The notes beneath the pieces were generated by a model. That model was given only the letters and a program-made list of their open reading frames with translations, was not told the origin of the DNA and did not search any database. The position numbers and the translations under genes are program-made. A stretch of 32,761 bases of DNA from Oscillospiraceae bacterium (GTDB lineage Bacteria > Bacillota > Clostridia > Oscillospirales > Ruminococcaceae): positions 1 through 32,761 of the forward strand of contig JAGAPB010000114.1 of NCBI GenBank assembly GCA_017847995.1, written 5' to 3'. How positions within the stretch are numbered: position 1 is the stretch's first letter; every line of letters begins with the position of its first letter. Positions 9,898-30,661 of the stretch are shown one piece after another.

Positions 9898-9939
9898 AAA
9901 ACAAGCCCCCACTGCTTTGCCGCGGTGGGGGTTTGTTTT
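9898..9939 (+). terminator. intrinsic terminator after degV
   Basis: A 15-bp stem (9898-9912 with 9925-9939, one G-T pair) encloses a 12-nt loop, and the 3' arm itself is T-rich. Confidence 0.85.
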
Positions 9940-10044
9940 GCGCAAAAACTTCACAAAAATTTTCCGTTTTTCGACAACAAAACCACCCTCTGCCACAGGG
10001 GGCAGAAACATCTTTCCAAAAGGGCCGAAAGGGAAATTCTGGAC

Positions 10045-10074
10045 TTGATTTGGTCCGCCTGTTTGTCCTAAACT
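10045..10074 (+). promoter_or_regulatory. candidate promoter of the NPDTG surface protein
   Basis: TTGATT (10045-10050) and TAAACT (10069-10074) lie 18 bp apart. The following leader contains an imperfect GC dyad around 10085-10109 of unknown function. Confidence 0.45.
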
Positions 10075-10136
10075 GTGCCCAGGACGGGCGGCTCGGAGAC
10101 AGCCCGCCGAAAAAACCTTTCGTGGAGGAAAGAAAA

Positions 10137-11153
10137 ATGAAAAAAGCGATTGCTCTTACCCTGGCTCTGGCCATGGCTTCGTCCATGAGCGCCATTGCCC
10201 TGGCTGGCGATGAACCCATCGCCCCCAATACTTACGCCCCCGGCAGTGTGATCTCGATCGAGGCCGGTGCATTTGCCGACGCAAACGGCGCCGCTCCCAC
10301 TGCTGAACTGAACCGCAACAACTTTACCGTTTCCGCCGACTGGGACAAGGGTACCACCATGGTTGACACCGTGCGCATTGATAACGACGACAACGAAGTT
10401 CAGATCACCCTGAAGGAAAGCTACACCATTACCGAAGCCCGTGCCCTGGAAGGCACCATCAGCCTGAAGGCCAAGAGCGAAGACAAGACCGTTTACACCA
10501 TGGACCTGACCGAAGACAATGGCCTGAAGGTCAACAACCTGGTCGTTACCGTGGAAGGCGTTAAGGACATTGAAGATTCCGAGATCCACAACGCCGAAGC
10601 CGACAACACCATTTACCACAACGATGAATACTCTTCCGGCTATGTTACCTTCAAGTCCGGCAGCGACCTGCTGACTGTTGTGCTGGATATGGCCAAGAAC
10701 GAAAAGGTATTCATGCACATCGACGAAGAAGAAATGGAAGAAGTTGCCGAAAAGTACAACAAGGACGACACTGCCGACCTGTACTTCTTCAACTTTGAAG
10801 GTACCCCCAGCCTGAAGAACAAGGCCACCCTGTCGATCGAGGCTGACTACCTGGAAGATGTTCATGTATACGAATACACCGACGGCAAGCTGCGTGAAGT
10901 TACCGTTGAAATGAACAAGGACGAAGATGCCTATGAATGGACCAGCAGCAAGCTGACCACCTATGTGGTATCCGATTCCAAGCTGAAGGCCGACGGCACC
11001 GTATCCGGTACCGAAGACAACAAGACCGAAGGCGACAAGACCGAAACCAACCCCGACACCGGCGCCAACGACATTGTGAACGTAGCTGCCGGTCTGGCTG
11101 TGGTTTCTCTGATCGCTGCCGGCGCTGTTGTTCTCAAGAAGAAGGACAACTAA
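10137..11153 (+). CDS. secreted surface protein with NPDTG cell-wall sorting signal
   Basis: The 338-residue protein has a signal peptide (MKKAIALTLALAMASSM..., cleavage likely near ALAG at ~24) and a classic C-terminal sorting signal: NPDTG at 305-309, a hydrophobic segment of about 20 residues and a KKKDN tail. It should be exported and joined covalently to the wall by a sortase; NP-type motifs fit class B enzymes, two of which lie at 25270-30661. The middle (about 25-290) is acidic, beta-rich and shares its last ~65 residues (from about FEGTPSLKNKATL) with the protein at 23750-24970. Ligand or function is unknown. Codon use is strongly skewed (Lys almost always AAG, Val often GTT), like gap, which suggests high expression. 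GGAGGAAAG precedes the ATG; the frame is open far upstream but without a start site of this quality. Confidence 0.9.
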   Translation: MKKAIALTLALAMASSMSAIALAGDEPIAPNTYAPGSVISIEAGAFADANGAAPTAELNRNNFTVSADWDKGTTMVDTVRIDNDDNEVQITLKESYTITEARALEGTISLKAKSEDKTVYTMDLTEDNGLKVNNLVVTVEGVKDIEDSEIHNAEADNTIYHNDEYSSGYVTFKSGSDLLTVVLDMAKNEKVFMHIDEEEMEEVAEKYNKDDTADLYFFNFEGTPSLKNKATLSIEADYLEDVHVYEYTDGKLREVTVEMNKDEDAYEWTSSKLTTYVVSDSKLKADGTVSGTEDNKTEGDKTETNPDTGANDIVNVAAGLAVVSLIAAGAVVLKKKDN

Positions 11154-12850: not shown

Positions 12851-14128
12851 TTGAAATTTACCGCTGAAATTCTTTGTGTAGGGACCGAAATTTTGTTGGG
12901 CAACATCGTCAACACCAACGCCACCGAACTAAGCCGCGGTCTGGCCGAGGTGGGGGTGGGGCTTTACCACCACACTGTTGTGGGGGATAACCCCCAGCGC
13001 CTGAAGGAAGCTTTGGAGATCGCCTTCAGCCGCAACAACCTGGTCATCACCACCGGCGGCCTTGGCCCCACCTACGACGACCTGACCAAGGAGACCATTG
13101 CCGCCTATTTTGGCCGCAAGCTGGTGCGTGACGAGGAATCGGAGCGCCGCATCCGCGCGTTTTTTGACCGCTGGAAGCGCCCCATGATGGAAAACAGCCG
13201 CGCCATGCCCGAAAACAACCTGAAACAGGCCGATATGCCCGAGGGCTGCATCATCCTGACCAACCATAACGGCACCGCCCCCGGCTGCATCATCGAAGGG
13301 GAGAACGGCAAGGTGGCCATCATGCTGCCCGGCCCACCCCGCGAGATGGCCCCCATGTTCCGCGAACAGGTGATGCCCTGGCTGCAGCAGCGCAGCGGGC
13401 AGGTTCTGCGCAGCCACAATGTTCACTTTTTCGGCATTGGTGAAAGCGCCCTGGAAGAACAGCTTCGGGAAAAGATGGAAACCATGGAAAACCCCACCCT
13501 GGCCCCCTATGCCAAGGACGGCGAGGTGATGCTGCGTGTTACCGCCGCGGCCCCCACCCCCGAAGAGTGCGAGGATATGCTGGCCCCCGTGGTAAACAGA
13601 CTGCTGGAACACTTCCCCGGCCTCATCTACGGCGTGGACGTGGGCGACCTGCAAACCGCAGCGATAAAAGCCCTGCAGGAGAAGGGGCTGACCGCCGCCA
13701 CCGCCGAAAGCTGCACCGGCGGCCTCATCGGCAAACGCATCACCGAGGTGCCCGGCAGCTCCGAGGTTTATGGCTTTGGGGTAGTCACCTACGCCAACGA
13801 GGCAAAGATGAAGCTGCTTGGCGTAAAGGAAGAGACCCTGAAGCAATTTGGCGCTGTGTCGGAGCAGACCGCGGCCGAGATGGCGGCGGGCGCCCGTGCC
13901 CTTTCGGGGGCGGATATTGCCATTTCGGTCACCGGAATTGCCGGCCCGGGCGGCGGTTCGACAGAAAAACCGGTTGGTCTGGTGTATATTGGTGTGGACA
14001 GCCCCTGGCACAGCGAGGTGAAAAAACTCAACCTCAACCGGGGCTATGCCCAACAGCGTGAGCACATCCGCTGGGTGGCCGCCAGCCACGCCCTGGATCT
14101 GCTGCGCCGCACCGCCCAAATGCGCTGA
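12851..14128 (+). CDS. cinA: CinA: MoCF-like domain plus nicotinamide-nucleotide amidase (PncC)
   Basis: CinA is a two-enzyme protein of pyridine-nucleotide salvage, and is associated with competence in some Firmicutes. The 425-residue length is standard. Residues 1-170 form the molybdopterin-binding-like domain (VGTEILLGNIVNTN; TTGGLGPTYDDLT; PGCIIE... and IMLPGPPREM), and about 270-415 form the PncC amidase with its catalytic Ser in AESCTGG and the TGIAGPGGG loop, all intact. Translation apparently starts at a TTG: AAAAGAGG sits 8 bases upstream, and the family N-terminus begins exactly there. It follows tatD by 20 bp and precedes a DUF1653 gene. This intact copy is the reference for the degenerate CinA-like domain fused to a sortase at 25270. 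Confidence 0.96.
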   Translation: MKFTAEILCVGTEILLGNIVNTNATELSRGLAEVGVGLYHHTVVGDNPQRLKEALEIAFSRNNLVITTGGLGPTYDDLTKETIAAYFGRKLVRDEESERRIRAFFDRWKRPMMENSRAMPENNLKQADMPEGCIILTNHNGTAPGCIIEGENGKVAIMLPGPPREMAPMFREQVMPWLQQRSGQVLRSHNVHFFGIGESALEEQLREKMETMENPTLAPYAKDGEVMLRVTAAAPTPEECEDMLAPVVNRLLEHFPGLIYGVDVGDLQTAAIKALQEKGLTAATAESCTGGLIGKRITEVPGSSEVYGFGVVTYANEAKMKLLGVKEETLKQFGAVSEQTAAEMAAGARALSGADIAISVTGIAGPGGGSTEKPVGLVYIGVDSPWHSEVKKLNLNRGYAQQREHIRWVAASHALDLLRRTAQMR

Positions 14129-23701: not shown

Positions 23702-23749
23702 TACTGAAATAGGACACGTCCGTTTAAACAACGAATGGAGGTACTCTTT

Positions 23750-24970
23750 ATGAAAAAAGTTCTGTCTTTGATTTTGGCTTTGATCATGCTGGTCGCAATG
23801 GCTGTTCCTGCCTTTGCAGACGATGGCTATGATCTTGTTATGACCGATAAGTCGGATAAAAAGCTTGGCGATGATGGCCAGATGCTGCCCGGCGAAACCT
23901 ATTATATTGAAATGACCAACGGTACCAATGACATTAGCGTTGACAAGCGCGATTTTAAGATCGAGTTCGACATCGTAAAGGGCTCCAAGTATGTTGCAGA
24001 CCACGGCCTGGAAGACGGCGAGTTCTTTATCACCGTTGCCAACAACCACTCCCTGACCGTGGACAACCCCGGTTACATCGATTTTGAGATCACCCTGACC
24101 GCCAAGGACGATTGGACCTCCCGCGGCATTGAAAAGGGTGAAAAGTTCTATTACAGCGATTCCTACGACGTGGGCAACGACATCTATTATGTTGATACCT
24201 ATGAAGATGCCGAGGATGCCGAAATTTACGACGGCACCGGTTCGGCCATCTCCTTTGCCGCCGACGACCGCGGCTGGGTCATTTTTGACTGTGGCCCCAT
24301 CGATATCCAGATGCGTCTGGGCTCCCGCGCCATCGCCTTTGACCCCGATGAAAGCAAAATTGCCGCCATCGACAAGCTGGCCAAGAACAGCGTTCCCAAG
24401 TGTGTCAACTTCCTGGCCCAGCCCACCATCTCCGGCACCGCCACTTTTATGGTAGACGATGACTACGACTATGTTTACTCCTTCGACGGCACCAAGCTGA
24501 CCCGCATCGACGTCAAGGAAGATGGCCGCCACAACACCTGGAAGATGACCGACGTTACCCTGGGCACCTTCGTTCTCAGCACCGAATCGCTGGCCGGCAG
24601 CGTTGCTCAGCAGCCTGCCTCTCAGCCCGAGGCCCCCGCACCTGCTCCCCAGTCTTCGGCTGCTCCCGCTCCCGCACCTGTCCCCGAATCCTCGGCTGCA
24701 CCGGCCCCCGCACCCGAATCTTCGGTAGCTGAGCCTGCACCCGAGCCCGAAGAACCCGCCGTGGACATCACCCCCGAACCCGAACCCGAGACCGAGCCCG
24801 CACCCGAAACCGAGGCAGAAGAAGAGGAACCCGTAGAGGCTCCAGTGGAAGAGGAAGAACCTTCCAAGTCTTTGATGCCCGTTGTATTGATGATCCTGGC
24901 TGCCGCCATCGTTGTGGCCATCCTCATCGCCCTGCTGGTTGCCCGTTCCGGCAAAAAGAGCCGTCGCTAA
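23750..24970 (+). CDS. secreted, C-terminally membrane-anchored surface protein related to the NPDTG protein
   Basis: The 406-residue protein has a signal peptide (cleavage near AFAD, ~23-25), an acidic beta-rich ectodomain (~25-285), a Pro/Ala/Glu/Ser stalk (~290-375) and one transmembrane helix (~380-400) before an RSGKKSRR tail. It has no LPXTG- or NPXTG-like motif, so it is a type I membrane protein rather than a sortase substrate. Its last ~65 ectodomain residues (PTISGTATFMVDDDYDYVYSF... onward) align with those of the protein at 10137-11153 over the same strand order, so the two share a domain. GGAGG lies 8 bases before the ATG. It has its own promoter and terminator just upstream of the sortase pair. 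No ligand or activity can be named. Confidence 0.88.
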   Translation: MKKVLSLILALIMLVAMAVPAFADDGYDLVMTDKSDKKLGDDGQMLPGETYYIEMTNGTNDISVDKRDFKIEFDIVKGSKYVADHGLEDGEFFITVANNHSLTVDNPGYIDFEITLTAKDDWTSRGIEKGEKFYYSDSYDVGNDIYYVDTYEDAEDAEIYDGTGSAISFAADDRGWVIFDCGPIDIQMRLGSRAIAFDPDESKIAAIDKLAKNSVPKCVNFLAQPTISGTATFMVDDDYDYVYSFDGTKLTRIDVKEDGRHNTWKMTDVTLGTFVLSTESLAGSVAQQPASQPEAPAPAPQSSAAPAPAPVPESSAAPAPAPESSVAEPAPEPEEPAVDITPEPEPETEPAPETEAEEEEPVEAPVEEEEPSKSLMPVVLMILAAAIVVAILIALLVARSGKKSRR

Positions 24971-25269: not shown

Positions 25270-28200
25270 ATGACCATACAACTGATCGGCGTAGGCAGTC
25301 AAAGCCGTCTGCGGCAGGTGCTTCAATCCAATATTGACCTACTGAAGGACGAGCTTGGGCTGCTGGGGATCGATACCCCGGCCATGCCGGCCGTTGCAGA
25401 CACCCAGCAGCGTCTGCAGCACTTGCTGGCCGAGACCATTTCCTCCGGTCGTTCGGCCATCATTGTGGGCGGCATTGGCGAAGAAGATGACTTCACCGTA
25501 TCCACCGTCTGCAAGGGCCTTTCGGTTCCCATGGTGGAAGACCACCTGAGCTACAACCAGATCAAAGCCAAATATGAGGCCGAGGGCCAGACCATTCCCA
25601 AGGGCGTTCGCCGCGGGGTAAAGGTTCCGGAAGGGGCCACCGTCTTCCGCAGCAAAACCGGGGGCTACCCCGGCTGCGCCGTCTCCTCGGGCGGCCAGTG
25701 CATCATCATGCTGCCCGATGACCCCGCCGAGCTGCGTTCTTTGCTGGATGGCAGCGTGTTTTCCTACCTTTCGGAAGTAAGCGGCCGGCCCGCCGTGCGC
25801 CACCGCATCGGGGTTTCGGGGCTTTCGGCCAGCCAGGCCAGCCAGATGCTGGAGGACCTGCTGGGACGGAAAAACCCTGCCGTTAAGGTCAGCGCCGGAG
25901 CCGGCGAGGTTTTGGTAAGAACCACCACCCTGGGCCAAACCCTGGGCGAAGCCGCCAATTTGGGCCTCAGCGTTGTGGATGCCGTCAAATCCCGCCTGGG
26001 AAGCTGCGTCTACGGTGTTGACACCGACGGCATCGTCCCCGTGGTTTCGGAACTGCTCAAATCCAAAAACGCCCGCATCGCCGTGGCTGAAGCGGGCTTG
26101 GAGGGACAGGTGTGCCGCCTGCTTTCCCGCGGCGGCATTCTGACCGGCGGGGCGGATTTTTCCGACAACCAGGGCAAAAAAGCTTTGGGGCTGAATGCCA
26201 AGGCACAGGATGACCAGACCCTTGCCGTGGCTGCGGCAAACGCCATCCGCCGCCAAAGCGGAGCCGCCCTGGGCCTGGCGGTACATACCGAAAGCCAGCC
26301 CGACGGCCGCCAAAGAATTTCGCTGGCCCTGACCGATGCCAAAAAGGCCTGGACCCGCACCCTTTCGGTCAACAGCAGCAACCCCGCCTTTGTGCGCAAT
26401 GTTGCCGTCAACCAGGCCATGAACATGGTGCGGCTTTACGCTTCCCATTATAACGAGATCCTGCCCACCGCAAGGGAACTGGGCGAATTCCAGCTTGCTT
26501 CGGCCCGGGGAGGAAAGAAGGCCCCCGCCTTTGCCGGGGTTTTCGGCGGAAAAAAGGAAAAGGCCCCCGAAAAAACCAGGGGCAGCCAAACCCCTGCCCG
26601 CAGGGAAGCTGCCGGAGAAGCTGCCGCCCAAAAGGCCGCCTGGTGGACCCGCTTTATCCCTGTCAAAGGGGATGACAAGCGGGAGATCATCCGCAAGTGC
26701 GTCTTCTGGCTGGCCATCGTGGTCTTCATCAGCCCCATCGCCTACATCATTGGGGTAAAGCAGGAATCGGTCAACAACGAAAAACTGACCCAGGAACTGG
26801 GCAGCATGCTGGTGGACGATGATTACGAGGCTTCCGACGATTATCCCGATGATTATCTGAAGAAGTTTGCCGCCCTGTGGGAACGCAACGAGGACATTGC
26901 CGGGTGGATCGAAATTGCCGGCACTCAGGTCAACTATCCCGTTGTGCAGGGCAAAAACAACGAGTTCTATTCCCGCCTTGACTTTGACCGAAACAACAAC
27001 AACCACGGCGTCCCCTTTGTGGATTTCCGTGTTGACCAGAAAAAGCCCAGCACCAACACCGTCATCTACGCCCACAACATGAATGACGGCCAGATGTTCG
27101 GTGAACTGATGAACTACAAGAACCTGTCCTACTACAAGGAACATCCCACCTTCCGGTACGACAGTGTCTATAAGGAAAATGAGTACAAGATTTTGGGCGT
27201 GTTCCTGGTAACTGCCAACGACCCCGAATTTTTGTACCACAACATGATCGACCTGGATGAGGCCGAGCTGACCGAATTTGTCAACCAGGTTCGTGCCCGC
27301 TCCCTCATCAACACCAAGATCGACGTAAAAACCACCGATAAGCTGGTCACTCTTTCCACCTGCGACTATTCCTTCAAGGATGCCCAGGGCAACCGTGTTG
27401 CCAGATTTGTAGTGGTGGGGCGCGCCATCCGCGATGGCGAAGCTCCCGCCGTGGATACCTCGGTAGCCACCCTGAACGCCAACCCCGTCATGCCCGCCGA
27501 ATGGTATGAACAGATCAAGCGCAACCAGGAAGCCGCCGAACTGGCCGCCGCCGAATCGGCCGCCCAGGAGGCCCTTGACTCGGTTGACCCCGAAAACATC
27601 AGCGCCTGGCTGACCCAGGAAGAGATCGACGCCTATCTGGCCGATGGCTATACCGAAGACGACCTGTGGTACTTTGCCGACGAGCGCCGCTACGAGCTGC
27701 TGGAATGGCTGGCCGAAGAGGAAATGACCTCCCTGACCGCCGCCGAAAAGCTCAGCGCCATGTATGCCCGCCGCGATAAGCTGTGGCTGGCCGAAGAGGA
27801 CCACAGCCTGACCGAAGCCGAAAAGCGGGAGAAGATCGCCGCCAACCAGGCCGCAGCCGCCATCCTCAGCCCCGAGGAACTGGCCAAGTGCCGCAGCTGG
27901 AACGAGATCCAGAAGGCAATGAAGAAGAAACTGGAAAGCATGTGCGAAACCCAGGGCTGTACCCTGCCCAGGGGCCACGAGGGCCTGCACAGCAACCAGA
28001 CCCCCTGTGACACCGCCGGCTGCACCCTGCCCAAGGGCCACAGCGGCCTGCACAGCAACCAGACTGCCTGTGACACCGCCGGCTGCACCCTGCCCAAGGG
28101 CCACAGCGGTCTGCACAGCAACCAGACTGCCTGCGACACCGCTGGCTGCACCCTGCCCAAGGGCCACACCGGAAAGCACAGCAACCAGTGTCCGGCAGAG

Positions 28201-28446
28201 GGCTGCACCTTTGCCAAGGGACACGAAGGACCGCACAGCAATCAGACACCTCCTCCCGAGACGTCCGATCCCGAAACCTCCAGGTCGGATTCGGCCAGCT
28301 CTGAATCTGCCTCCGGCAGTGGCGAATCATCTTCCGGTTCTGAGGGCTCTTCCGGCGGAGGAGAAACTTCCAGCGGAAGCGAAACCACATCCAGCGGCAC
28401 CGAAGTTATTGCCGTGGCGGTTTCGGACAATTCTTCGGATGCGTAA
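25270..28446 (+). CDS. CinA-like pseudoenzyme fused to a membrane-bound class B sortase with C-X4-C-X5-H-X3-H repeats
   Basis: The 1058-residue protein has, in order: a CinA-type MoCF-like domain (1-165; VGGIGEEDDFTV at 66-77, VPEGATVF, PGCAV, IIMLPDDPAELRSL), a linker domain, and a PncC-like domain (~248-405), collinear with the true CinA at 12851. The amidase motif AESCTGG reads AEAGLEG (273-279) and TGIAGPGGG reads VHTESQPDG (338-346), so it should be inactive. A basic linker leads to one transmembrane helix (~478-497). A class B sortase domain (~500-730) follows with H602 (YAHNM), C698 (LSTC) and R712 (RFVVVG), all catalytic residues present. A helical region (735-890), five ~21-residue Cys/His repeats (892-994) and a Ser/Gly tail end it. 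The basic linker suggests the CinA part is cytoplasmic and the sortase external. The ATG at 25270 is where CinA homology begins. Fusion integrity comes from one uninterrupted frame; function of the pairing is unknown. Confidence 0.85.
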   Translation: MTIQLIGVGSQSRLRQVLQSNIDLLKDELGLLGIDTPAMPAVADTQQRLQHLLAETISSGRSAIIVGGIGEEDDFTVSTVCKGLSVPMVEDHLSYNQIKAKYEAEGQTIPKGVRRGVKVPEGATVFRSKTGGYPGCAVSSGGQCIIMLPDDPAELRSLLDGSVFSYLSEVSGRPAVRHRIGVSGLSASQASQMLEDLLGRKNPAVKVSAGAGEVLVRTTTLGQTLGEAANLGLSVVDAVKSRLGSCVYGVDTDGIVPVVSELLKSKNARIAVAEAGLEGQVCRLLSRGGILTGGADFSDNQGKKALGLNAKAQDDQTLAVAAANAIRRQSGAALGLAVHTESQPDGRQRISLALTDAKKAWTRTLSVNSSNPAFVRNVAVNQAMNMVRLYASHYNEILPTARELGEFQLASARGGKKAPAFAGVFGGKKEKAPEKTRGSQTPARREAAGEAAAQKAAWWTRFIPVKGDDKREIIRKCVFWLAIVVFISPIAYIIGVKQESVNNEKLTQELGSMLVDDDYEASDDYPDDYLKKFAALWERNEDIAGWIEIAGTQVNYPVVQGKNNEFYSRLDFDRNNNNHGVPFVDFRVDQKKPSTNTVIYAHNMNDGQMFGELMNYKNLSYYKEHPTFRYDSVYKENEYKILGVFLVTANDPEFLYHNMIDLDEAELTEFVNQVRARSLINTKIDVKTTDKLVTLSTCDYSFKDAQGNRVARFVVVGRAIRDGEAPAVDTSVATLNANPVMPAEWYEQIKRNQEAAELAAAESAAQEALDSVDPENISAWLTQEEIDAYLADGYTEDDLWYFADERRYELLEWLAEEEMTSLTAAEKLSAMYARRDKLWLAEEDHSLTEAEKREKIAANQAAAAILSPEELAKCRSWNEIQKAMKKKLESMCETQGCTLPRGHEGLHSNQTPCDTAGCTLPKGHSGLHSNQTACDTAGCTLPKGHSGLHSNQTACDTAGCTLPKGHTGKHSNQCPAEGCTFAKGHEGPHSNQTPPPETSDPETSRSDSASSESASGSGESSSGSEGSSGGGETSSGSETTSSGTEVIAVAVSDNSSDA
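27943..28251 (+). repeat. five 57-63-bp in-frame tandem repeats encoding C-X4-C-X5-H-X3-H units
   Basis: Units start at 27943, 28006, 28069, 28132 and 28189. Three middle units are nearly identical in DNA. Each encodes CxxxxCTLPKGHxGxHSNQ. The third repeat differs from the second at few bases, consistent with recent expansion. Cys and His spacing suggests a small metal-binding module, but binding is inferred. Confidence 0.9.
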
Positions 28447-28460
28447 TATTTTTGCACAGA

Positions 28461-28497
28461 AAACAGGCATGGCCCGATGGCCATGCCTGTTTTTTTG
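28461..28497 (+). terminator. intrinsic terminator after the CinA-sortase gene
   Basis: A perfect 14-bp stem pairs 28461-28474 with 28479-28492 around CGAT, followed by T residues. Confidence 0.92.
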
Positions 28498-28648: not shown

Positions 28649-30661
28649 ATGAATCAAAAGAAACAGGAAAAGTCCCAGTGGTGGACCCGCTTTATCCCTG
28701 TTAAAGGGGACGACAAGCGTGAGATCATCCGCAAATGCATCTTTTGGGTGGCCATCGTTGTGTTTGTCTGCTCCATCGCCTACATCCTCAGCGTAAGGCA
28801 GGAGTCGGTCTACACGGAAAAACTGACCCAGGAGCTGGGCAATATGCTGGTGGTGGACGAAAACTACGAAGTGGTGGACGACTACCCCGATGACTATCTG
28901 ACCAAGTTTGCCGCCCTGTGGGAACGCAATGAAGACATTGCCGGCTGGATCGAAATTGCCGGGACCAAACTGAATTATCCTGTGGTGCAGGCCAACAGCA
29001 ACACAAAATATCATCGTGCCGACTTTGACGGCAACTATAACGATCACGGCGTTCCCTATGTTGATTACCGCGCAGACATCAAAAAGCCCAGCACCAACAC
29101 CGTCATTTATGGCCACAACATGAACGACGGCCAGATGTTCGGCGAGCTGATGAACTACAAAAAGATCTCCTATTATAAGGAACACCCCACCTTCCGTTAC
29201 GACACCGTATACAAGGAAAACGAATATAAAATTCTGGGCGTGTTTTTGGTGACTGCCAACGACCCCGAATTTATGTACCACAGCATGATCGACCTGGATG
29301 AAGCTGGACTGACCGAATTTGTCAACCAGGTGCGTGCCCGCTCCCTCATCAACACCAAAATTGACGTGAACACCGCCGACAAGCTGGTCACCCTTTCCAC
29401 CTGTGACTATTCCTTCCGGGATGCCCAGGGCAACCGTGTGGCGCGCTTTGTTGTGGTGGGCCGCGCCATCCGCGAAGGGGAAGACCCCGCTGTGGATACC
29501 TCCATCGTCACCCTGAACGCCAGCCCCGTCATGCCCGCCGAATGGTACGAGCAGATCAAGCGCAACCAGGAGGCCGCCGAACTGGCTGCCGCCGAAGCAG
29601 CCTCTCAGGCCGCACTGGAATCGGTCAACCCCGACAATATCACCGCCTGGCTGACCCAGGAGGAAATTGACGCCTACACCGCCGAGGGCTACAGCCCCGA
29701 AGATTTGGAATTCTTTGCTTCGGAACGCCGCTATGCCCTGCTGGAATGGCTGGACGAAGAGGAAATGACCGGCATGACCCCCGCCGAAAAGCTGAGCGCC
29801 ATGCGCAGCCGCCGCGACCGCAAGTGGCTTTCGGAAGAGGACCGTGATGCCAATCTGACCGAAGCCGAAAAGCTGGAAAAGATCGCCGCCAATCAGGCCG
29901 CAGCCGCCATCCTCACCCCCGAGGAACTGGCCAAGTGCCGCAGTTGGAAGGATATCCAGGAACTGCTGGCCACCAAGCAGCAGGCTGCCGAAGCCGCCAA
30001 GCAAAAGGAAGAAAAGGCCGCCGGACAAATTCCCGCAAAGCTGACCGGGAAGTACCGCAGCGCCTGTCTGGCCGAAATGATAAAGGCCGACGAAAGCAAA
30101 TGGCCGGAAATCATTCAGAAATACCTGGATAAGTTTGATGCTGAACATAAACACAACTATAAAGCAACTGTGACCGCTCCCACCTGTGGTGCACCTGGTT
30201 ACACCACCTATGTTTGCGAGTGTGGAGATAAATACACCGGTGATGAAGTTGCAGCTACCGGACAGCATACCTATAATGATACCGTAGTTGACCCCACCGA
30301 AACCGAGAAGGGTTATACCAAGCACACCTGCACGGTCTGCGGCTATTCGTACGAGGATAATTATACTGGCCCCACCGGCTCAAGCAGCTCCAGTTCGGGC
30401 AGCAGTAGCACAACGCCCCCCGAATCTTCCGGCGGCGGTAGCGGTGAAGATGCCTCTGGCGAAGGGAGCTCCAACGAGGGGAATACCGGCGAAGGTACTG
30501 GCGACACCAACGGAGAGAACACTCCCTCAGGCGATGGAACCAAAGACGAAAATCAAACCGACCCGGCCGATGTTCCCGCCACTGTAAGCGAGGGGGAAGA
30601 AGACCCGATTGACGATGACGAAGAACCCGCCACTGGCGAAGGAACCCAACCCACTGAATAA
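28649..30661 (+). CDS. class B sortase with long helical and CxCG-repeat tail
   Basis: The 670-residue protein begins with a short cytoplasmic end, one transmembrane helix (~31-50) and an external class B sortase domain (~55-275). H156 (YGHNM), C252 (LSTC) and R266 (RFVVVG) form the catalytic set; sortase B enzymes cut NPXTG/NPQTN-type signals and link proteins to the wall or to pilins. From TRFIPVKGDDKREIIRK through the helical region (to ~455) it is closely similar to residues ~460-890 of the preceding protein, so they are tandem duplicates. The C-terminus differs: two HxHxY-PTC-GYT-CxCG repeats (~500-574), then an acidic Ser/Gly tail. AGGAGGAAA precedes the ATG. The candidate substrate is the NPDTG protein at 10137. 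Confidence 0.95.
   Translation: MNQKKQEKSQWWTRFIPVKGDDKREIIRKCIFWVAIVVFVCSIAYILSVRQESVYTEKLTQELGNMLVVDENYEVVDDYPDDYLTKFAALWERNEDIAGWIEIAGTKLNYPVVQANSNTKYHRADFDGNYNDHGVPYVDYRADIKKPSTNTVIYGHNMNDGQMFGELMNYKKISYYKEHPTFRYDTVYKENEYKILGVFLVTANDPEFMYHSMIDLDEAGLTEFVNQVRARSLINTKIDVNTADKLVTLSTCDYSFRDAQGNRVARFVVVGRAIREGEDPAVDTSIVTLNASPVMPAEWYEQIKRNQEAAELAAAEAASQAALESVNPDNITAWLTQEEIDAYTAEGYSPEDLEFFASERRYALLEWLDEEEMTGMTPAEKLSAMRSRRDRKWLSEEDRDANLTEAEKLEKIAANQAAAAILTPEELAKCRSWKDIQELLATKQQAAEAAKQKEEKAAGQIPAKLTGKYRSACLAEMIKADESKWPEIIQKYLDKFDAEHKHNYKATVTAPTCGAPGYTTYVCECGDKYTGDEVAATGQHTYNDTVVDPTETEKGYTKHTCTVCGYSYEDNYTGPTGSSSSSSGSSSTTPPESSGGGSGEDASGEGSSNEGNTGEGTGDTNGENTPSGDGTKDENQTDPADVPATVSEGEEDPIDDDEEPATGEGTQPTE
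30146..30370 (+). other. CxCG-type repeat segment with distinct base composition
   Basis: The DNA encoding residues ~500-574 of the second sortase is visibly more A/T-rich at third positions (AAA, TAT, GAT, GCA) than the flanking parts of the same gene. The encoded HKHNY-PTC-GYT-C-E-CG and HTY-YTKHTCTVCG units are widespread on bacterial surface proteins. The domain may have been acquired or swapped in. Confidence 0.55.

Follow-up and report, generated by a model that had tools for sequence, protein, structure and literature searches.

The window, the whole 32,761-nucleotide stretch of DNA that was analyzed, encodes at positions 25270 to 28446 (+ strand) a 1,058-amino-acid fusion protein, in which a degenerate CinA module is followed by a transmembrane (TM) segment, a class B sortase, and a repeat-containing tail, as judged from the open reading frame, Pfam and NCBIfam profiles, an AlphaFold model, and Foldseek. 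CinA is a cytosolic enzyme of NAD salvage (NAD recycling), and sortases pin proteins to the cell wall. The original prediction that both lie in a single uninterrupted frame of 1,058 codons was borne out, since 25270 to 28446 is open throughout. The start codon is the ATG at 25270, with the purine-rich sequence GGAAGAAGG just 5' of it. From residue 401 up to a GTG codon at residue 484 there is no in-frame ATG, GTG, or TTG, and this GTG falls within the TM helix. Translation of a separate sortase from an internal start was rejected because the linker has no in-frame start codon. Directly 3' of the stop codon is a terminator-like hairpin with a T-run (+ strand, approximately 28463 to 28497; minimum free energy [MFE] of -32.4, z of -6.7), which is absent from the + strand list of a consensus terminator scan.

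The CinA half comprises a COG1058/MoCF-like domain (residues 1 to 170, 25270 to 25779; Pfam, Foldseek, and residue check), a CinA KH-type domain (residues 178 to 250, 25801 to 26019; Pfam), and a catalytically degenerate PncC-like (NMN deamidase) domain (26029 to 26484; Pfam, Foldseek, and residue check), all on the + strand. Matches to Pfam MoCF_biosynth (residues 8 to 163, 1.4e-8) and CinA_KH (residues 180 to 249, 5.3e-10) were above the cutoff, and the match to PF02464, the CinA C-terminal domain, was under it. The full-length CinA model PRK00549 (NCBIfam) aligned with residues 4 to 389 (9.1e-43) at 146.8 bits against a cutoff of 379; as aligned, the module is collinear with this model but very divergent. 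The best PDB relatives of the N-terminal 405 residues were 6mr3 and 4ct8, the latter being Thermus thermophilus CinA (TtCinA), which Foldseek retrieved with the CinA half of the AlphaFold model at an E value of 3.8e-26. Pfam, PRK00549, and the CinA fold found by AlphaFold and Foldseek thus uphold the claim of a full-length, collinear CinA homologue at about residues 1 to 405; what had to be corrected is that its deamidase catalytic residues are gone.

We compared 10 catalytic or ligand sites, Glu12, Asp45, Asp76, and Glu156 from the T. thermophilus structure (PMC4246079) and Ser31, Cys32, Tyr58, Lys63, Thr105, and Arg145 from Agrobacterium tumefaciens mutants (PMC5384747), at which the fused CinA of the window has Q, D, D, E, A, G, F, G, H, and R, respectively. 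At the NMN deamidase site, Ser is replaced by A275, Lys by G302, Tyr by F297, and Thr by H339, and R376 is kept; the NMN deamidase activity of the module has probably been lost. At the COG1058 site, Glu12 is replaced by Gln11, and D44, D74, and E154, the equivalents of the TtCinA Mg/ADP-ribose ligands D45, D76, and E156, are retained. Ligand binding without catalysis is possible on these residues, and nucleotide sensing is conceivable because three of the four Mg/ADP-ribose residues persist. The suggestion that the module handles pyridine nucleotides finds no support in the window protein, given the A275/G302 dyad, the histidine in place of Thr, and the loss of Glu12. Nor did we find support in this protein for a coupling of metabolite status to surface assembly. 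An intact standalone CinA is encoded on the same contig.

Between the modules lie a basic linker (26485 to 26679, +) and a predicted TM segment (residues 472 to 498; 26683 to 26763, +) with a net charge of +2 before and -7 after it. The AlphaFold model, built from 35 aligned sequences of the loci, has a mean pLDDT of 88.6 and falls below 50 solely in the linker at residues 415 to 455. The protein is likely oriented N-in/C-out, which would place CinA in the cytoplasm and the sortase outside. The class B sortase domain (26863 to 27435, +) matched Pfam Sortase above the cutoff (residues 547 to 718, 6.5e-11) and TIGR03064 (sortase_srtB, NCBIfam) at residues 532 to 722 (1.6e-49; 168.4 bits against a cutoff of 153.75), and its closest structure by Foldseek on the AlphaFold model is Staphylococcus aureus SrtB (1qwz, E value of 2.2e-19). 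The single predicted helix and the charge bias agree with the topology proposed earlier, and the residue check and the TIGR03064 score confirm the class B sortase with H602, C698, and R712. The catalytic Cys stands in a TLSTC context. The domain is probably active, presumably as a transpeptidase. In the tail, 63-bp tandem repeats (27955 to 28188, +) and their flanks encode five copies of a C-x-C-x-GH-x-G-x-H unit (residues 892 to 989), which could bind metal, and the protein ends in a Ser/Gly/Glu-rich stretch (28276 to 28443, +).

Behind the terminator-like hairpin, and with its own start, is a tandem gene for a 670-amino-acid class B sortase without a CinA module (28649 to 30661, +; profile, residues, and tree), in which the H/C/R residues are intact. 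It is 79 to 83% identical to the fused sortase and has a different, Cys-rich tail ("GYTTYVCECG"). In the sortase tree, the tandem sortase is sister to the fused sortase of the window, with the fused sortase of a congener outside, and it therefore appears to be a more recent copy in which the CinA half was lost and the tail altered.

Just upstream of the fusion is a gene for a secreted protein with a C-terminal TM segment (23735 to 24970, +; open reading frame and similarity), which ends in a hydrophobic stretch and a basic tail and has no NPDTG motif. This protein is related (E value of 6e-10) to a secreted protein encoded at 9933 to 11153 (+; real start probably near 10137) that was found in the sorting-signal search and whose C terminus consists of NPDTG followed by a hydrophobic stretch and KKKDN. 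The search returned few matches: LPATG and LPQTG proteins on another contig (C118) and the NPDTG protein in the window. Because the gene 5' of the fusion is its paralogue, NPDTG-type proteins are the best substrate candidates, and the protein encoded at 9933 to 11153 may be regarded as the best local one. Relatives of the upstream protein were not found near other fusions.

Searches with the CinA alignment among relatives, and then at the levels of family, class, and order, yielded many CinA frames of 700 to 1,400 amino acids. When the reading frames of the extracted loci were scanned with CinA, SrtB, and SpoIID profiles, 64 loci from 62 genomes, the window included, proved to encode CinA-membrane-sortase or CinA-membrane-SpoIID fusions; counted by group codes, these genomes represent 39 genera from 5 families of the order. 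The fusion had been expected to recur in related genomes, and a frameshift or assembly join had been named as a threat to it; the recurrence of the architecture in 62 assemblies answers both points, and a join shared in the same domain order by so many genomes is far beyond chance. The source assembly is fragmented (125 contigs), and an artifact, or the misreading of two separate genes as a single one, might be suspected on that ground. We find this scarcely credible given that the 62 assemblies are independent, that long-contig ones are among them, and that the linker offers no internal start. The CinA-sortase fusion is a real family and not an error.

The family is variable at both ends. The CinA part is shortened in L039, L046, and L147 and in second copies in L154 and L155, and the outer part may be SrtB alone, SrtB plus SpoIID, SrtB plus a glucosaminidase (L056), or SrtB plus Big_2 (L037, and L040 by inspection). 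Each of the 42 fusions scanned has a TM segment between its modules, and in most of them the inside flank is the more positive one. L043, L069, and L085 consist of CinA, TM, and SpoIID with no recognizable sortase. In L056 (5095 to 8007), the glucosaminidase domain (PF01832) that follows CinA-TM-SrtB is a predicted cell wall hydrolase on the same chain. The pseudosortases of L062, L064, L066, L063, L081, and L082 (residues ~440 to 710) no longer have His and Cys, and most have also lost Arg; they are still conserved. A class-level sample of 196 genomes contained no fusion outside the order; its sole long CinA frame from beyond the order (G324, L086) is not a fusion. Long frames in G065 and G212 were not counted either, as L068 lies at a contig end and L059 has adjacent genes. 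At 16 further loci, a separate srtB-type gene directly follows cinA at gaps of -19 to 88 bp, with 5 of the 16 pairs overlapping or touching.

The two genes 5' of a fused or adjacent cinA are mostly a class V aminotransferase of the cysteine desulfurase type (csd) and thiI, so that the usual setting is an operon of csd, thiI, cinA, and srtB. This pair precedes the fusion in 19 of the 20 extra genomes with degenerate fusions; in the 20th, the contig ends there. The csd-thiI-cinA order looks ancestral, with srtB added behind it, because thiI also often precedes the unfused cinA genes of other families in the order. The fusions of the window and of its congener G001 (L037) are not behind csd-thiI. 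On the CinA tree, the fused state requires about 9 changes, at least 5 of them forced by well-supported branches, and therefore fusion, fission, or both have been repeated. Degenerate copies have long branches, and their own placement on this tree is uncertain. At L125 to L127 and near cinA in G022, G072, and G010, the gene 3' of an intact cinA starts with a second, degenerate KH-PncC-like stretch and continues into a dead sortase, which suggests a tandem duplication of the C-terminal half of CinA.

The catalytic state of fused CinA follows the presence of a second copy. All standalone CinAs examined have the reference residues, except for one Met in place of Cys32 (L121). In genomes with no CinA match other than the fusion (32 proteins in 32 genomes), the catalytic residues are essentially kept as well; the exceptions are Cys32 in L065, Arg145 in L069 and L085, a truncated start in L044, and a missing COG1058 domain in L046. 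Degenerate fused CinAs number 32 copies in 30 genomes, the window included, and 29 of the 30 have another CinA match that is full-length or nearly so; the one in which we found none is G024, a genome that is 86% complete. The second copy in the window (12851 to 14128, +) has all 10 catalytic or ligand residues intact by residue alignment and groups, at a support of 100/99, with standalone CinAs that are mostly not linked to thiI, as well as with one from a different family of the class. We read this as a second CinA gene, acquired by transfer or by old duplication, having probably taken over the enzymatic role.

Most columns still conserved among the 32 degenerate copies hold structural residues (Gly, Pro, Leu, and Ala), and the acidic ligand residues are mostly lost, E156 excepted. 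The sortase H/C/R residues are intact in 27 of the 32 fusions with degenerate CinA and in 18 of the 32 with intact CinA; sortase catalysis has been lost, or the domain is unrecognizable, in 19 of all 64. Either catalytic function can therefore go while the architecture stays. The pairs tested show purifying selection on the dead modules: by simple NG86 estimates, each from a single close pair and with dS partly high, dN/dS was 0.19 for degenerate CinA (L078/L080) and 0.09 for a dead sortase module (L062/L064). These pairs come from loci other than that of the window protein, whose nearest relative is L037, at 31% identity in the CinA part.

We favor, with some reservation, the view that a fused operon gave rise to a membrane protein in which a repurposed, noncatalytic CinA forms the cytoplasmic half and a class B sortase, probably active, forms the outer one. 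The ancestral order would have been cinA and then srtB behind the cysteine desulfurase-thiI pair, and the coupled genes would have been joined in frame, a step that should be easy given the uncleaved N-in/C-out anchor that class B sortases already possess. A second, standalone cinA, gained or kept, would do the pyridine nucleotide work, and the fused CinA, freed of enzymatic work, would lose catalysis. It would have been retained as a folded, noncatalytic cytoplasmic domain, probably a dimerizing anchor or docking platform. The outer sortase would attach surface proteins, with the NPDTG protein as a candidate substrate. We infer the scaffold or dimer role by elimination and from the known CinA dimer (PMC4246079). 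Three observations speak against this reading: 14 of the 64 fusions pair a live CinA with a dead or missing sortase, so that the architecture needs no sortase activity; the tandem sortase does without CinA; and the fusion is no longer beside thiI in the genus of the window itself.

An alternative is that translationally coupled genes were joined neutrally as a matter of convenience, that each half works alone, and that a degenerate CinA is a mere tether or relic. The interchange of fused, adjacent, and unlinked states, with its forced changes on the CinA tree, fits this idea, as do the independent losses of CinA and sortase catalysis and the CinA-less sortase duplicate in the same genome. However, a relic would hardly be expected to keep the CinA fold in some 30 genomes at the low dN/dS of the tested pair or to be shortened only sometimes (partial copies L039 and L147), and we regard neutral joining as rather unlikely. 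We give still less weight to a transmembrane sensor, in which CinA would bind a nucleotide (ADP-ribose, NMN, or one related to these), leave it unconverted, and regulate the sortase or SpoIID outside. The acidic residues that remain in the window protein and the conformationally asymmetric dimer of TtCinA (PMC4246079) would suit a sensor, but most degenerate fusions have given those residues up, the 40-residue disordered linker between CinA and the membrane would make a poor conformational relay, and CinA resembles a normal enzyme in many fusions.

The repurposed, noncatalytic CinA half remains our preferred account. The most far-reaching extension, that across the lineage a soluble NAD salvage enzyme was turned into a cytoplasmic domain for sensing or control in a transmembrane cell wall assembly protein, with the sortase and often SpoIID outside, such that nucleotide state or the binding of a CinA partner governs surface protein anchoring or peptidoglycan processing, is in our estimation doubtful. 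Across 39 genera, adjacent genes and fusions that are live/live, live/dead, dead/live, or dead/dead amount to a natural experiment, and the tie between loss of CinA catalysis and a second CinA copy makes it testable why an enzyme fold outlives its catalysis. Long proteins annotated just as class B sortases may be misread in these bacteria, as may CinA counts in reconstructions of their NAD metabolism.

Two known families thus stand here in a new, widespread, and repeatedly remodeled architecture that is apparently undescribed. In the literature on CinA with sortase, thiI, competence damage, or pseudoenzymes we found no description of the fusion, and databases may hold such proteins uncommented. 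The portion available to us of a classification of CinA architectures mentions occasional fusions to other domains, which it sets aside, and names none with a sortase (PMC3855486). Residues 1 to 405 of the window protein share the MoCF/COG1058-KH-PncC order, fold, and length of two-domain CinA (TtCinA, 4ct8, PMC4246079; PMC3855486), whereas they are without the catalytic residues and are joined to a TM helix and a sortase. Many of the fusion relatives (L039, L043, L044, and L071, for example) end outside the membrane in SpoIID, as in SpoIID/LytB-domain cell wall proteins; the window protein, in contrast, has no SpoIID, and its tail consists of Cys/His repeats and Ser-rich sequence. With class B sortases (S. 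aureus SrtB, 1qwz/4lfd; Clostridioides difficile SrtB, 4ux7), it shares the fold, TIGR03064, the His/Cys/Arg triad, and, as predicted, the N-terminal anchor, but an ordinary SrtB starts at its anchor, whereas the window protein has approximately 470 residues of CinA and linker before it and a repeat tail of approximately 330 residues after the sortase.
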